64,000 bases of DNA from Robiginitomaculum sp. (GTDB lineage Bacteria > Pseudomonadota > Alphaproteobacteria > Caulobacterales > Maricaulaceae): the NCBI GenBank assembly GCA_021776565.1, contig JAJFFQ010000058.1, positions 1-64,000 of the forward strand, written 5' to 3'. This document shows positions 12,635 through 53,615 of the stretch, one piece after another (positions within the stretch are counted from its first letter, which is position 1; every line of letters starts with the position of its first letter). A program made the position numbers and the translations under genes. Below the pieces are notes generated by a model. It had not been told where the DNA came from. It did not search any database and saw only the letters and a program-made list of their open reading frames with translations.

Positions 12635-14004
12635 GTATCAAGAATAAATATACCACGCTGAGGCACAGGATATTCAAACGGCGGCGTTTGCGCGATTTTA
12701 CCCCAAAAGGCTTGTTTGGGCGCTCACTTCTTATCATTGCCTTGCCAGTAGCATTGATGCAAATTGCTGTTTTGTGGATGTTTTTTGACTCGCAATGGGA
12801 AACGGTGACCACCCGCCTGTCTGAGGGTGTTGCCGGAGATGTGGCAGTAATCGTCACTCAGTACCAACAAAACCCAGGCACAGAAAATTTTGCAAATTTG
12901 TCACAACTTGCTCAGGAAAAAATGCACCTTTCGGTAGTTTTGCAACCAGATGGCGCTTTACCTACCAGTCTGCGTTCGTCCATTTTCTCAGTGCTGGATC
13001 GCACTTTGCGCGGGGCATTGGACAACAAGCTGGAGGCACCGTTTTGGTTCGATACAACTCGCTATCCGGCTTATGTGGATATACGTGTTCAGACAAAAGC
13101 AGGGCTTTTGCGTTTTATCGCCCCGCGCGACAAGGTCTTTTCAACCTCTGGTCATATCTTCGTTTTCTGGCTGATCGCAGCCACTTTTATACAAACCGGA
13201 ATTGCGATTATTTTTATCCGCAATCAGGTCAAACCCATTCAACGACTGGCAAACGCCACCGACCGTTTTGGCAAGGGGCAGGATTATCCTGGTTTTTCAC
13301 CTTCTGGCGCACGGGAAGTAAGACAGGCAGCTTCGGCCTTTCTTGAAATGCGCAATCGGATTGTACGGTTTGTTGAGCAGCGCACCGCCATGCTTGCCGG
13401 GGTTAGCCACGATCTGCGCACGCCATTGACGCGGTTAAAATTACAATTGGCCTTGATGGATAATCATACAGGCATTGGAGATGCTCTTCAGGACATCAAG
13501 GAAATGGAACATATGCTTGATGGTTATCTTTCCTTTGCCCGTAATGAAGCAGAAGAAGACAGCGGTTTTGTAGATGTGAGCGCCCTGATTACCCATTGCG
13601 CACAGAACGCCCGGCGTGGCGGCGCGCAAATTGAACTGCAAATCGAAAAAAACCTTGGCGTTTCAGGTCGTCAGGATGCCCTAAGGCGATGTCTTGGTAA
13701 TCTCATTGATAATGCCGTGTGTTATGGTGAGACGGTCTGCATTACCGCTTACCATGACAAGACAAGCGTTATTGTGCTTGTTGAAGACGATGGGCCGGGT
13801 ATTGAAGATCACCTTGTCGAGGAGGCGTTTCAACCCTTTAACCGCCTTGATCCATCGCGCAATCTCAATTCAGAAGGCGTTGGTCTTGGCTTGTCCATTG
13901 CCAGAGACACGGCGCGCGCCCATGGCGGTGACATTAGCCTTGGTCGATCTAAAATAGGTGGCCTGCGCGCCCTTTTACACTTACCAGAAGACGTTCAGGA
14001 TTGA
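12631..14004 (+). CDS. sensor histidine kinase (EnvZ/PetS-like)
   Basis: Two TM segments, HAMP-like region, MLAGVSHDLRTPLTRLKLQLAL H-box, and an HATPase domain (GNLIDNAV, VEDDGPGI, GVGLGLSIA). Confidence 0.95.
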   Translation: MSIKNKYTTLRHRIFKRRRLRDFTPKGLFGRSLLIIALPVALMQIAVLWMFFDSQWETVTTRLSEGVAGDVAVIVTQYQQNPGTENFANLSQLAQEKMHLSVVLQPDGALPTSLRSSIFSVLDRTLRGALDNKLEAPFWFDTTRYPAYVDIRVQTKAGLLRFIAPRDKVFSTSGHIFVFWLIAATFIQTGIAIIFIRNQVKPIQRLANATDRFGKGQDYPGFSPSGAREVRQAASAFLEMRNRIVRFVEQRTAMLAGVSHDLRTPLTRLKLQLALMDNHTGIGDALQDIKEMEHMLDGYLSFARNEAEEDSGFVDVSALITHCAQNARRGGAQIELQIEKNLGVSGRQDALRRCLGNLIDNAVCYGETVCITAYHDKTSVIVLVEDDGPGIEDHLVEEAFQPFNRLDPSRNLNSEGVGLGLSIARDTARAHGGDISLGRSKIGGLRALLHLPEDVQD

Positions 14005-28452: not shown

Positions 28453-30657
28453 TTACTCACCGTTTTCTGTTGTCACCGGGAAACCACGATCACGCATCAG
28501 CGCCTCAATACGGGCATCACGGCCACGAAAAGCACGATAGGCATCCGCCGGATCTACTGCATTGCGAATGGAAAAGAGATTATCGACCAATTTTTTCGCC
28601 AATGCCTTGTCGTAAAAGCCACCCGGTGCCTCGGCAAAGGCCTCGGCTGCATCGGCGGTCAGCACGTCGGCCCACATATAACCATAATAACCAGCCGAAT
28701 AGCCTTCACCGGAAAAGATATGACCAAAATGCGGGCTGCGATGACGCATGGGCAATTCGGCTGGCATGTTCAGGGTCGCCAGGGTTGAACGCTCGAAAGC
28801 ATCAACATCCAGCCCTGCCGGATCGGTGGTGTGATAACGCATATCAACCAGTGCCGATGCCAGATATTCGGTGGTGGAGAAACCTTGATTAAACGTTGCC
28901 GCTGCCTTGATCTTGGCCACCAGTTCTGCCGGGATAGGCTCGCCGGTTTCGTGGTGAATCAGAAATTTGTTGATGACCTCATCGGTGGATAACCAACGCT
29001 CCAGCAATTGTGACTGGAACTCGGTATAATCACGCACCCCACCGTTCAGTGTCGGGTAATCGACTTTGGACGAAAAATAATGCAACGCATGGCCAAACTC
29101 GTGAAAAAGTGTCTGCGCATCATCCCACGAAATCAGCACCGCTTCGCCGGGTGCGCCCTTGATGAAGTTTGAGTTGTTGGAACCCAGAACTGTCTTCTTG
29201 CCATCAAAATTTTCATAGCTGCGATAAGTAGTCGCCCAGGCGCCGGAACGTTTGCCGGGCCGTGCATAGGGATCAAGATACCACAAACCCACATGAGCAC
29301 CGGTTTCGCGGTTCGTTACTTCCCAAACGCTCACATCTTCATGGAAAACCGGCACTGAACCAGAGGGAACGGGGGCAAAATCAAAGCCAAACAACTCACC
29401 AGCAACAAAAAACAGGGCACCGCGCAGCTTGTCCAGTTGCAGATATTGCTTCACTTCATCGGAATTAAGATCATATTTAGCCACCCGCACTTTTTCTGCA
29501 TAGAAACGATAATCCCATGGGGCAATGGTAATACCGGCCCCTTGCACATCAGCGATGGCCTGCATATCGGAAACCTCTTCCTTCACGCGGGCAATGGCTG
29601 CTGGCCAAACCGCCTCCATCAATTCCAGCGCCCGTTCGGGCGTTTTAGACATCCGGTTTTCCAGCCGCCATTGCGCATAATTATCATAGCCCAGCAGATG
29701 GACGCGCTCATTACGAAGATTAAGAATTTCGGCAATAATGGCGTTATTGTCATGGCTATCCGCATTATCACCACGGCTGTAATACGTGCGCCAAACAATT
29801 TCGCGCACATCACGTTCAGTAGAAAACGTCAAGAACGGAGACATGGACGAGCGTGTATTGGTAATCGCGTACTCACCTTCATGATCGCGTGATTTTGCCG
29901 CAGCAGCAGAAGCTTGCACAAAGCTCTCTGGCAGACCGCCAAGCTGCTCCTTGGAGATATAGGTCACATAACCTTCTTCATCGGCCAGAACATTATTGCC
30001 AAAATCTGTGTGCAATTTCGCAAGGCTTTGATTGATTGCCGCATAACGTTCCTTGGCTGGCCCATCCAGCGTTGCGCCATTGCGGGCAAATCCATCATAG
30101 GTCAACAGGGTCAGACGCTGTTGGTCAGGGCGCAGGGCTTTCATTTCCTCGCCTTCATAAACTGCACGCACGCGAGCAAAAAGCGCAGCGTTTTGCGTAA
30201 TTTTAGAGCCAAACTCAGAGAGCTTCGGGGCCATTTCACCCTGAATGGCACGAAATTCCGGCGAGGACATATTGGATGACCAAATGCCCCAATACGAAAA
30301 CACGCGCCCCAAATCGCGCCCGGTGCGTTCCATGGCGACTATGGTGTTTTCAAATGTCGGTGCATCCGGGTTATTGGCGATCTCATCAATTTCCGCCAGG
30401 TTTTTGGCCATACCCAGTTCCAGCGCAGGTTTTAATGCAGCCAGCTCCATCTGGTCAAAGGCCGGAACACCGCTATAGGGGCCAACCCATTCGGCCAGCA
30501 ATATATTGTCGGTCATGGGCGCATCCTCATTTGCCTCTTGGGTTTGTACATATCCATCTTTATTCGCAACACCATCAGCAGGTGCCTGTGGTTCGCTACA
30601 GGCCGCAGCAAGGATGAGTGTTGATATGGCAGCACTGGAAAGAAAAAATTTGCGCAT
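28453..30657 (-). CDS. M3 family metallopeptidase (peptidyl-dipeptidase-like), lipoprotein signal
   Basis: TLFHEFGHALHYFSS (HEXXH), FSGEGYSAGYYGYMWADVLTADAAEAF; N-terminal lipobox LILAAAC. Confidence 0.95.
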   Translation of the reverse strand: MRKFFLSSAAISTLILAAACSEPQAPADGVANKDGYVQTQEANEDAPMTDNILLAEWVGPYSGVPAFDQMELAALKPALELGMAKNLAEIDEIANNPDAPTFENTIVAMERTGRDLGRVFSYWGIWSSNMSSPEFRAIQGEMAPKLSEFGSKITQNAALFARVRAVYEGEEMKALRPDQQRLTLLTYDGFARNGATLDGPAKERYAAINQSLAKLHTDFGNNVLADEEGYVTYISKEQLGGLPESFVQASAAAAKSRDHEGEYAITNTRSSMSPFLTFSTERDVREIVWRTYYSRGDNADSHDNNAIIAEILNLRNERVHLLGYDNYAQWRLENRMSKTPERALELMEAVWPAAIARVKEEVSDMQAIADVQGAGITIAPWDYRFYAEKVRVAKYDLNSDEVKQYLQLDKLRGALFFVAGELFGFDFAPVPSGSVPVFHEDVSVWEVTNRETGAHVGLWYLDPYARPGKRSGAWATTYRSYENFDGKKTVLGSNNSNFIKGAPGEAVLISWDDAQTLFHEFGHALHYFSSKVDYPTLNGGVRDYTEFQSQLLERWLSTDEVINKFLIHHETGEPIPAELVAKIKAAATFNQGFSTTEYLASALVDMRYHTTDPAGLDVDAFERSTLATLNMPAELPMRHRSPHFGHIFSGEGYSAGYYGYMWADVLTADAAEAFAEAPGGFYDKALAKKLVDNLFSIRNAVDPADAYRAFRGRDARIEALMRDRGFPVTTENGE

Positions 30658-30741
30658 GGGAATACCCCTTTGTTAAAGTCTTGTCCTTGTTTAACCTCTT
30701 GCTATCAATGGTGACAGTTAATTATCAGCAAGGGTATCGAG

Positions 30742-31188
30742 ATGAAAAATAAAATTTTACCGAGCATTTTGTTTGCCATAACTTTACCAGTAATGGCCCA
30801 CGCCAGCTGTGACACCCTCGCCGGGCGCTGGGTGAATGCCCGGGGCTCTGTTATTGTTCTTGAAAATACCGATGCACAAACGGGTAGGTTTAAGGGCGAT
30901 TTTTTGTCCGAAGCCTCGATAGAGAACGGGGCCATTTTTGCGATTGCCGGTTGGGTCAATTCATCACAGGCTACATCTGTTCGCCCGGATGTTGTGCAAT
31001 CACTGTCTTTCACCGTACGCTGGGGAACAACGGGCAGCATCACCGCCTGGACGGGGTTTTGCCGCAAAACCGACAAGGGAGCAGAAATAGCTACCTTGTG
31101 GCATTTAGTGCGCAGTAATAGTGAAAACGATTTTGACCACATCCATTCCGGCAGTGATGTTTTTGTGCGTGACGAATCTACGCTGTAA
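30742..31188 (+). CDS. secreted avidin-family protein
   Basis: Signal peptide MKNKILPSILFAITLPVMAHA; CDTLAGRWVNARGSVIVLENTDAQTGRFKGDF, LSFTVRWGTTGSITAWTGFC and EIATLWHLVRS match the avidin/streptavidin beta-barrel pattern. Confidence 0.85.
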   Translation: MKNKILPSILFAITLPVMAHASCDTLAGRWVNARGSVIVLENTDAQTGRFKGDFLSEASIENGAIFAIAGWVNSSQATSVRPDVVQSLSFTVRWGTTGSITAWTGFCRKTDKGAEIATLWHLVRSNSENDFDHIHSGSDVFVRDESTL

Positions 31189-32929
31189 AGTCTTCCAGCA
31201 AGCCAATGAATTCAGGCGTTAGAGAATCGCGGGTATCCGGGTTGGCCCAAAACGGGTTCATGAACACCAGGCGCAACAGGGCCAATTGTCCCACATCACA
31301 TTCTCCGCCATAGGTGCCAACATGCGCCTCAATCAACGCACCATAACTGTGCGCATCGAGCACGGTTTTAGAGACAGAAAAATCAGGGTGTGCCTGAAAT
31401 TTTGAATAAACGGCCAGTGTGCGCTCATTTGAAACGCTCAAAGGTTCGTCCGGTTTGGCCAGTGAAAAACAAACGATGTTAGTGTCCGAAGGATCAAGCG
31501 GGCGCACCAGAGGATTGGCCTTGACCATATCTGCCTGAAAAATTTTGCGAGACTGAATACCAGCGGCAATAATTTTACCAAACTTGTCAGGCCCAAAACC
31601 CAGGGTTTTACCGGTTAGCCAGGTGGCCGCCGCACCAGCGCCAGAGCGCGACCCTTCCAGTGTGCAGCGCCATTTATCCTTCGTATCTGCGCGATCAATA
31701 TAGGGCGCCTGAAAGCTGGATGCCCGATAGGCATGCTCATCACGGCAAACAAATGCCCCGCAGGAATAAGGCACATAGCCCAGTTTATGTGGATCAATGG
31801 TTACCGATTGCGCCCGCGCAATGGCCCGCAGTGCATCTTGTTGTTGTTTCGCCAGGACTTGCTCTGCTTTGCCACCCAGCATGGTACAGAAAAATCCACC
31901 ATATGCCGCATCAACATGATGCCAGATATGTATGTTGTCTTGCTTCAACGCATCCAGCATATCTGCAATTTTATCGACAGGGTCTATTTCTCCTGCTTCG
32001 GTGGTGCCGGCGACACTGGTCAGGCACAGCACCGGCCGGCCCGCAAGGCGTGCGTCATCGACGCGCCCGGCCAAGGCCGTCATGTCCACCCGGCCTTGCG
32101 CGTCCAGTGGTGTATTCCAGAACGAATCTTCGCCAATACCAAACAAATTGGCCGCCTTTTGCCAGGAAAAATGCTTGTTTCCCGGGGTAATCAGAACCGG
32201 GCCAAGATAATCTCGCCCTGAACATTTACCAATCCGTTTGGCGATCTCAAAGGGATTGCCAAGAACCATGCTGGCCGCACGTAAAGCGCTCTCTTCAACC
32301 TCTCGATCGTCGCGCAATTGCTCAAATTTTCGCCACCCCATGTGTGCCGCCATAAATGGATCAAGTTCATCGCCGTCACGTTCAGCCAGAACAAGGGCCA
32401 GTGACAAGGCATGATCCAGCCGGTAACGCGCCCGCCACACTGCCTCAAAGTTGGCAAATGTTCCCCCGCTGGTGAAATGACCCTGGGCAATTGCGGAATC
32501 ATACCCCACCATCTTGGCCAGCATGGCAATGGCTTCGGATTCCATACGCGCGCCAACTTTGGCAACTTCGCGCGAGGTGTTGTTGGGGTTGTGCAGCAGC
32601 GTTGCAAAATGGCCCAGCAGCGCCGGTAGCGACAGCTCGGACACCATATGGCCGATATAACGCGGGGTAAATTTTGGCACTTCAGAGCGCAGCATCACCA
32701 GTAAATTTCGCAATTCCTGACCCAAAACTTCGCGCTCACGCAGAAATGTCGGTGATAACCTTCGTTCTTCTGAAATAGCCTCAGGATCATCGGCAAAAAT
32801 TGAACGCCGCCAGTCATACCAATGATCCAGTATGGCCTGAAATTCGCCGCGCACCCACGAGCCATTCTCTGACTTGGGGCCAAGAAAGTAAGCATCTGCT
32901 GCAAATGGGGTGTCATTCGGATCAGTCAT
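31178..32929 (-). CDS. group II PLP-dependent decarboxylase / aminotransferase-fold protein
   Basis: FTSGGTFANFEAVWRARY, IWHHVDAAYGGFF, SVTIDPHKLGYVPYSCGAFVCRD. Confidence 0.9.
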   Translation of the reverse strand: MTDPNDTPFAADAYFLGPKSENGSWVRGEFQAILDHWYDWRRSIFADDPEAISEERRLSPTFLREREVLGQELRNLLVMLRSEVPKFTPRYIGHMVSELSLPALLGHFATLLHNPNNTSREVAKVGARMESEAIAMLAKMVGYDSAIAQGHFTSGGTFANFEAVWRARYRLDHALSLALVLAERDGDELDPFMAAHMGWRKFEQLRDDREVEESALRAASMVLGNPFEIAKRIGKCSGRDYLGPVLITPGNKHFSWQKAANLFGIGEDSFWNTPLDAQGRVDMTALAGRVDDARLAGRPVLCLTSVAGTTEAGEIDPVDKIADMLDALKQDNIHIWHHVDAAYGGFFCTMLGGKAEQVLAKQQQDALRAIARAQSVTIDPHKLGYVPYSCGAFVCRDEHAYRASSFQAPYIDRADTKDKWRCTLEGSRSGAGAAATWLTGKTLGFGPDKFGKIIAAGIQSRKIFQADMVKANPLVRPLDPSDTNIVCFSLAKPDEPLSVSNERTLAVYSKFQAHPDFSVSKTVLDAHSYGALIEAHVGTYGGECDVGQLALLRLVFMNPFWANPDTRDSLTPEFIGLLEDFTA

Positions 32930-52181: not shown

Positions 52182-52206
52182 ATTGCCAATTTTAGAGAGA
52201 TTATTC

Positions 52207-52863
52207 ATGCAAGTTTTACGTCGGTTTATTGTTACGCTTCTTCCGCTTGCCCTATGTGCCGGACTGACAGCGTGCTCTGGTAATAGCACCAGTGAAAACG
52301 CACGGTCTTCGGGCGAGCGCGATGATGACATGGCTATAGGTGACCCCAGGGCACCCATTGTAATGGTCGAATATGCTTCGCTGACCTGCCCCCATTGCGC
52401 GAAATTTCATGAAGATATTTTTCCTGAACTGAAAGCCAGATATATCGATACGGGCAAGATGCGATTTATTTTTCGCCAACTGCCCACCCCACCGGTTCCC
52501 TATGCCGTTGGTGCCGAAGCGGTGGCGCGATGCGCTGGCCCTGATAACTACTTTGGTCTTCTGGATGTGCTTTATGAAAAACAGAACTATTGGGTGCGGG
52601 CCAGCAACCCGCGCAGCGCCCTGATGGAAATTGCCGCCACAGCTGGCATATCTCAGGAGGATTTTGATGCCTGTGTCAGTGATGAAGCCAACATCACCCG
52701 CATACAGGCGTTTAGTAAAATCGCCAATGAAGACTTTAACATCACCGGTACACCGTCTTTTGTCATTAACGGCGAGCGGCGGCCCCATGTTGCGGGCCGT
52801 CCCTATGGTCTTGAAGATTTTACCGCCGTCATTGATCCACTGCTGGATCATCTCGACAATTAG
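52207..52863 (+). CDS. DsbA-family thiol-disulfide oxidoreductase lipoprotein, copy 1
   Basis: Lipobox LTAC; VMVEYASLTCPHCAKFHEDIFPELK (CPHC); GTPSFVINGE. Confidence 0.93.
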   Translation: MQVLRRFIVTLLPLALCAGLTACSGNSTSENARSSGERDDDMAIGDPRAPIVMVEYASLTCPHCAKFHEDIFPELKARYIDTGKMRFIFRQLPTPPVPYAVGAEAVARCAGPDNYFGLLDVLYEKQNYWVRASNPRSALMEIAATAGISQEDFDACVSDEANITRIQAFSKIANEDFNITGTPSFVINGERRPHVAGRPYGLEDFTAVIDPLLDHLDN

Positions 52864-52916
52864 AGTCTTGCACAGACCCAAGAATCGTAAGTTTATAACC
52901 ATTGTGGAGAATTTTC

Positions 52917-53615
52917 ATGTTTAGTTTACGTCGTTTCCTTGCCGTCCTGACCCCGCTTGCCTTATGTGCCGGACTTGCCGCCTGTTCTGGTGGTGGTTCT
53001 GATACTGATGGACGTTCATCCGCCGAGCGCGATGATGACATGGCCATGGGCGATCCCAAAGCCCCAGTGGTTATGATTGAATATGCCTCGCTAACCTGCC
53101 CCCATTGCGCGGATTTTCATGAAGATGTGTTTCCGGAACTGAAAAACAAATACATCGATACCGGCAAAATGCGCTTTGTCTTCAGGCAATTCCCAACCCC
53201 GCCGGTTCCCTATGCCGTTGGCGGCGAAGCGGTGGCAAGATGTGCTGGGCCGGACAAATACTTTGACCTTTTAGATGTGCTTTATGAGAAACAGCGTTAC
53301 TGGGTCACATCCAATAATCCACGCAAAGCCTTAATGGATATTGCCGCTACGGCCGGCATATCCCAGGAAAGCTTTGATGCCTGTGTCAGTGATGAAGCCA
53401 ATATCAAACGTATTCAGGAGGTCAGCAAAACCGCCCAGGATGAGTTCAAGATCACCGGCACGCCATCTTTTATTATCAATGGTAAATTGCGGCCACGGGT
53501 GCGCACAATAGAAAGCTTTGTTGAAATAATTGACCCGATACTGGGGATTAAGACAGAACCCAGAACAGAGAATAATGAAGAAAATACAGATGATGTAGAG
53601 AGCGGAGACCACTAG
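52917..53615 (+). CDS. DsbA-family thiol-disulfide oxidoreductase lipoprotein, copy 2
   Basis: Lipobox LAAC; VMIEYASLTCPHCADFHEDVFPELK; close paralogue of the preceding gene. Confidence 0.93.
   Translation: MFSLRRFLAVLTPLALCAGLAACSGGGSDTDGRSSAERDDDMAMGDPKAPVVMIEYASLTCPHCADFHEDVFPELKNKYIDTGKMRFVFRQFPTPPVPYAVGGEAVARCAGPDKYFDLLDVLYEKQRYWVTSNNPRKALMDIAATAGISQESFDACVSDEANIKRIQEVSKTAQDEFKITGTPSFIINGKLRPRVRTIESFVEIIDPILGIKTEPRTENNEENTDDVESGDH

Follow-up and report, generated by a model that had tools for sequence, protein, structure and literature searches.

Avidins are best known for biotin sequestration, the opposite of a use in capture and release, and the inter-subunit Trp of streptavidin is supplied by the neighboring subunit. 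Bacterial avidins form a known and diverse family, which has been surveyed in 118 species (PMC8033661). In streptavidin, Tyr is one of the residues that hydrogen-bond biotin (PMC8776744), and a streptavidin monomer without the stacking of the neighbor's Trp120 binds biotin with a Kd of ~2 nM (PMC12105034). Rhizavidin-type dimers, which have no Trp110, close the pocket with a disulfide between the L3,4 and L5,6 loops, and bradavidin II, for which a biotin complex is available (4GGZ), has a dynamic oligomeric state (PMC5398887). The only genetic test of the role of a bacterial avidin found in the literature was conducted in the biotin auxotroph Rhizobium etli CFN42, in which a rhizavidin mutant lost growth on subculture, biotin or the gene restored it, and the authors' reading was biotin storage (PMC8914248).

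The avidin gene analyzed here lies in a window of 64,000 nucleotides (the whole stretch of DNA under study) from a marine-type bacterium. By profile and predicted structure, its product is a genuine secreted member of the avidin family and ordinary in its fold, with two changes in the biotin pocket. Among solved structures, xenavidin is the best match, and xenavidin and chicken avidin have in common with the window avidin an equivalent Cys pair, the barrel, and most pocket residues; however, Tyr33 and Trp110 are present in chicken avidin, whose L3,4 loop is longer, and vertebrate avidins did not group with the window avidin in the tree. Rhizavidin and shwanavidin are likewise bacterial and secreted, have no inter-subunit Trp, and, in the case of rhizavidin, can occur in hosts auxotrophic for biotin, whereas the window avidin has no L3,4-L5,6 disulfide, a longer loop between strands 4 and 5, and an N-terminal Cys pair not present in those two proteins. 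Bradavidin II (4GGR), which is nearly identical to the L032 protein, is similar in that Phe replaces the ureido Tyr and a counterpart of Trp110 is missing, but it carries the L3,4-L5,6 disulfide and lacks the N-terminal Cys pair.

Gene Structure and Predicted Fold

The main features of the locus are as follows:

28453-30657, minus strand: neighboring M3 peptidase gene (Dcp-like), divergent; lipobox-type N-terminus by eye
30658-30741, no strand: 84-bp intergenic region, common to the avidin gene and the divergent M3 peptidase gene, from ORF positions
30742-31188, plus strand: avidin-family gene, single copy in the genome, encoding a 148-aa precursor; supported by profile, phmmer, and predicted barrel
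30742-30804, plus strand: putative signal peptide, residues 1-21, with AHA cleavage motif, by eye
30808-30810, plus strand: Cys23, predicted to form a disulfide with Cys107 that links the N-terminus to strand 6, analogous to Cys4-Cys83 of chicken avidin, by alignment
30823-31170, plus strand: predicted eight-stranded barrel (AlphaFold; strands 28-32, 37-44, 49-55, 65-73, 84-94, 99-110, 113-127, and 130-143)
30901-30903, plus strand: Phe54, at the position of biotin-contacting avidin Tyr33/streptavidin Tyr43, by alignment
31060-31062, plus strand: Cys107, second half of the predicted disulfide, by alignment
31132-31134, plus strand: Phe131, at the position of inter-subunit avidin Trp110/streptavidin Trp120, by alignment
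31178-32929, minus strand: neighboring pyridoxal-dependent decarboxylase gene, convergent with the avidin gene, whose 3' end it overlaps by 11 bp

The ORF of 148 codons, from an ATG start to a TAA stop, is exactly that of the initial annotation, which had proposed a secreted protein; the N-terminus (MKNKILPSILFAITLPVMAHA, followed by SC) has the features of a signal peptide with a signal-peptidase-I-like AHA site (by eye), and the avidins of two other genomes of the genus (G017 and G007) have the same type of signal peptide. No promoter match above chance was detected in the 84-bp intergenic region, and neither a linked transporter or regulator nor a biosynthetic cluster or export system was found near the gene. 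Coding on the opposite strand was dismissed: the exact reverse frame is interrupted by several stops, and nothing supports a long overlapping minus-strand ORF (30705-31142). Elsewhere in the window, a tandem pair of genes (52183-52863 and 52902-53615, plus strand) encodes thioredoxin/DsbA-like lipoproteins.

The avidin-family identity and barrel suggested by the initial annotation were both borne out. Residues 26-141 matched the Pfam family PF01382 (Avidin) with an E-value of 6e-22 and 78.6 bits, against a curated cutoff of 24, and a phmmer search of the PDB returned xenavidin as the best match (4.8e-13), followed by shwanavidin (7e-8), AVR4 (5.5e-7), and, lower, wilavidin, so that the assignment is not a matter of chance. 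It is the sole avidin in its genome by Pfam search. AlphaFold predicted eight strands in avidin order from a two-row alignment (pLDDT 69.9, pTM 0.64) and again an eight-stranded barrel from three rows (pLDDT 72.2). The top PDB matches of the predicted model in Foldseek were avidins (probability 1.0), with a TM-score by target of ~0.8 to xenavidin and shwanavidin for a model whose pLDDT is only ~70. Among viral structures, the sole match below 1e-3 was a protein of a giant virus (BFVD A0A481Z7D4, Pithovirus LCPAC201) that carries an avidin-family annotation.

Biotin Pocket and Cysteine Pair

The window avidin was aligned by MAFFT with chicken avidin, streptavidin, rhizavidin, shwanavidin, and bacterial relatives, the residue letters of avidin and streptavidin being verified against the PDB. 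The pocket residues initially listed as kept proved to be so: avidin Asn12, Ser16, Trp70, Ser75, Thr77, and Trp97 correspond to Asn32, Ser36, Trp94, Ser99, Thr101, and Trp120. Thr35, Phe79, and Asn118 are also regarded as kept, in the form of Ser56, Trp103 (also reported initially), and Asp139, and the Leu14 equivalent is Arg34. Two positions are altered. Avidin Tyr33 is replaced by Phe54, a change which the initial annotation had overlooked and which bears on affinity as well, and Trp110 is replaced by Phe131. The latter had been read as Phe or a neighboring residue, and the call is now firm because the relative encoded on an IMG/VR contig (L160) aligns gaplessly in this region (NDFDHIHSGSDVF in the window avidin vs. 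YSWDHILTNSDVF in L160, and WNLVRSSSQYSWDHILTNSDVF vs. WHLVRSNSENDFDHIHSGSDVF). Phe54 is Phe in the G000, G017, and G007 avidins and Tyr in the Xanthomonas, Burkholderia glumae, and IMG/VR relatives; Phe131 is Phe in all three genus avidins and in none of these relatives. Phe in place of Tyr33 is found in bradavidin II as well, and it may occur in agroavidin, to judge by the titles of PDB entries for F46Y mutants.

Cys23 and Cys107 are the sole Cys residues of the protein, and neither lies in L3,4 or L5,6. They occupy the positions of avidin Cys4 and Cys83, a pair at the end of the barrel, as initially stated, although the spacing between the first Cys and the first-strand Trp is greater by one residue in the window avidin. 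The pair does not mark a mosaic with vertebrate avidin, as it is conserved across the three avidins of the genus, the plasmid avidins of Xanthomonas and B. glumae, and the IMG/VR relative. The description of the pocket as rhizavidin-like is not supported: the L3,4-L5,6 disulfide of dimeric avidins is absent, and the Trp slot stays aromatic with a loop length equal to that of Trp-bearing relatives. The L3,4 region, said to be short, is so in comparison with chicken avidin but not with streptavidin, to which it is about equal in length. The protein may be non-tetrameric, as initially suggested.

Judged from its sequence, the window avidin most likely binds biotin, and its affinity would probably be lowered. 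It seems very unlikely that it is a degenerate avidin without biotin binding, which either has another structural role or is being lost; two key contacts are indeed altered, and fibropellins show that the avidin fold is able to lose biotin binding (PMC8033661), but the frame and signal peptide are intact and most pocket residues are kept. Another possibility, also quite unlikely, is that Tyr33 to Phe, Trp110 to Phe, and Leu14 to Arg34 tune the pocket to a shifted ligand, such as dethiobiotin, biocytin, or a biotin antimetabolite. This would suit the fact that the changes of Tyr and Trp are fixed across the genus avidins but missing in the nearest relatives, and the biotin site of streptavidin also takes acidomycin (PMC13336041); however, the remaining ureido and tail contacts are kept, and bradavidin II, with Phe at Tyr33 and no Trp110, forms a biotin complex.

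Biotin Metabolism of the Host

The host genome contains the biotin ligase BirA, which indicates that the cell uses biotin. As stated in the initial annotation, no biotin genes lie near the avidin gene, and bioB was found to be missing genome-wide as well: the sole sub-threshold match elsewhere, a weak one, is accounted for as lipoyl synthase. BioY was not found in the host genome either. Of the other 17 genus members, 16 likewise gave no bioB match over the cutoff, and as some of these are 98-99% complete, genome incompleteness is an unlikely cause. From its gene content, the host is very probably auxotrophic for biotin, and in a survey of aquatic genomes, 57% of Alphaproteobacteria were classed as biotin auxotrophs (PMC9561691). 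BioA was discarded as a marker of auxotrophy, as related aminotransferases are too numerous and the majority of family genomes that do have bioB score under the bioA cutoff. The absence of bioB also speaks against a pocket shifted toward antimetabolites, as biotin-synthesis inhibitors should not harm a bioB-less host.

Distribution and Origin

Within the host's family, 20 of 59 genomes gave avidin Pfam matches, compared with only three of the 18 genomes of its genus. The three genus avidins are 60-68% identical, with dN/dS of ~0.14-0.22 at near-saturated dS, and are under purifying selection, a further point against a degenerate protein. In the window genome and G017, the gene lies between the M3 peptidase and pyridoxal-dependent decarboxylase genes. 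Among the sister genomes whose slot was readable, the same slot spans 96-102 bp and contains no avidin in G004, G006, G007, and G012, whereas in G002, G003, and G010 the slot (30658-31177 in the window) contains another small secreted-looking protein of ~120-150 aa on the opposite strand, with a C-terminal KRLVHYY. The G007 avidin sits at a different locus from those of the window genome and G017. As sister genomes have either no gene or a different one in the slot, the avidin gene was probably acquired horizontally.

The placement of the genus avidins was not resolved in the first tree; in a later one, to which plasmid avidins were added and from which very long branches were dropped, they were separated from the lipoprotein-type avidins of the family. 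A joint clade of these two groups was rejected (p-AU 0.037, from a short alignment). Outside the genus, the nearest rows by path were the plasmid avidins of Xanthomonas and B. glumae and L160. A joint clade of these three with the three genus avidins was absent from the best tree but could not be rejected (p-AU 0.225). The placement thus carries moderate weight, because the alignment is short and sequences had to be added and removed.

The avidins of Xanthomonas phaseoli/citri, B. glumae, and L160, which are encoded on plasmids or a phage-like contig, are 35-39% identical to the window avidin. They have in common with it a signal peptide, the Cys pair of the N-terminus and strand 6, and the length of the loop between strands 7 and 8, and the DH..SDVF motif is shared by the window avidin, the Xanthomonas avidins, and L160; the difference is that they have Tyr and Trp at the Tyr33 and Trp110 positions, where the window avidin has Phe twice. 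The L160 avidin (1998-2453) is flanked by KilA-N-like and repressor-like proteins (by eye) and is possibly prophage-borne. A phage origin of the window avidin was rejected, as it had no match in PHROGs or phage records. A scan of genome contigs returned a single relative. In B. glumae (L163, NZ_CP045091.1, plasmid pWSGX3), the avidin gene (13385-13846) adjoins genes for type I polyketide synthases, a carbamoyltransferase, an extra bioB, methylmalonyl-CoA mutase, and an MFS transporter, a neighborhood reminiscent of the streptavidin antivitamin clusters of Streptomyces; no report of this combination in B. glumae was found in a literature search.

These relatives raise the question of whether the window avidin is a secreted biotin-sequestering weapon or anti-grazer protein that removes biotin from the environment, so that competitors or predators starve. 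Such a role has been proposed for streptavidin, which works in a biotin-pathway antibiotic network in Streptomyces (PMC13336041). The closest relatives on plasmids or a phage-like contig, one of them inside a PKS cluster with an extra bioB, and the patchy, slot-like presence, which suits a competition gene, are in its favor; however, the surroundings of the gene contain neither a biosynthetic cluster nor an export system, self-starvation of a biotin auxotroph would follow unless bound biotin were recovered, and the loss of the Trp seal and ureido Tyr speaks against maximal affinity. On balance, such a use appears rather unlikely.

Lipoprotein-Type Avidins of the Same Family

The other avidin of the host's family (L008, L016, L017, and others) resembles the window avidin in its avidin domain, its export, and its mostly bioB-less hosts, but mostly has a lipobox, retains Trp110, has Phe in place of Trp70, contains no Cys pair, and is often encoded directly downstream of an NhaC-family transporter gene. 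Among genomes of the same family outside the genus (G018-G058) that are at least 90% complete, bioB is missing in 10 of 12 carriers of lipoprotein-type avidins vs. 3 of 25 non-carriers (Fisher p = 4e-5), whereas independent pairs on an rpoB tree (~2 in the same direction and 0 in the opposite one) were too few and not significant. The link between these avidins and loss of bioB is suggestive, in a lineage separate from that of the window avidin. One avidin carrier (G040) has a broken bioB remnant (L126, contig 3, 347000-351000).

The NhaC-family gene was observed upstream and co-oriented in 10 of 17 lipoprotein-avidin loci (L045, L049, L051, L052, and L054-L059), mostly within a few bases and often overlapping, with a carboxylesterase or another lipoprotein sometimes in between. 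The transporter was rejected as a partner: it gave no match at 1e-40 in the window genome, G017 has only a distant paralogue, and close homologues occur in avidin-free, bioB-positive genomes.

A Proposed Role in Biotin Capture and Reserve

The best explanation is that the window avidin is an exported protein, looser than streptavidin, which serves its auxotrophic host as a biotin catcher and reserve, a reading to which we give a nearly even chance. The protein would be exported to the periplasm or outside, where it would fold with one disulfide, biotin would be bound more loosely than by streptavidin, and bound biotin would be a captured and stored vitamin. The rhizavidin of auxotrophic R. etli provides the experimental precedent for this reading, and the raw association of lipoprotein-type avidins with bioB loss favors it indirectly. 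Whether the use is nutritional rather than offensive is about evenly balanced. With no inter-subunit Trp seal, no dimer-locking disulfide, and the ureido Tyr lost, the protein would both load and release biotin; that it evolved as a low-affinity, reversible avidin for vitamin capture, acting as a periplasmic carrier or reserve in this manner, is a more specific proposal and unlikely.

Against the capture reading, the avidin does not track auxotrophy: it is present in only three of 18 genus members, though nearly all are bioB-less, and the gene has no linked transporter or regulator. A weapon also fits better with relatives on plasmids, one of which (B. glumae) lies in an antibiotic-like cluster, and the association of lipoprotein-type avidins with bioB loss comes from the different lineage described above.

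An avidin with two weakened contacts in an apparent biotin auxotroph provides a direct test case for the role of bacterial avidins. Were the window avidin to release biotin and sustain growth where biotin is scarce, the avidin fold would serve nutrition besides warfare, and an avidin that is looser by nature would also be of use as a reversible biotin reagent.
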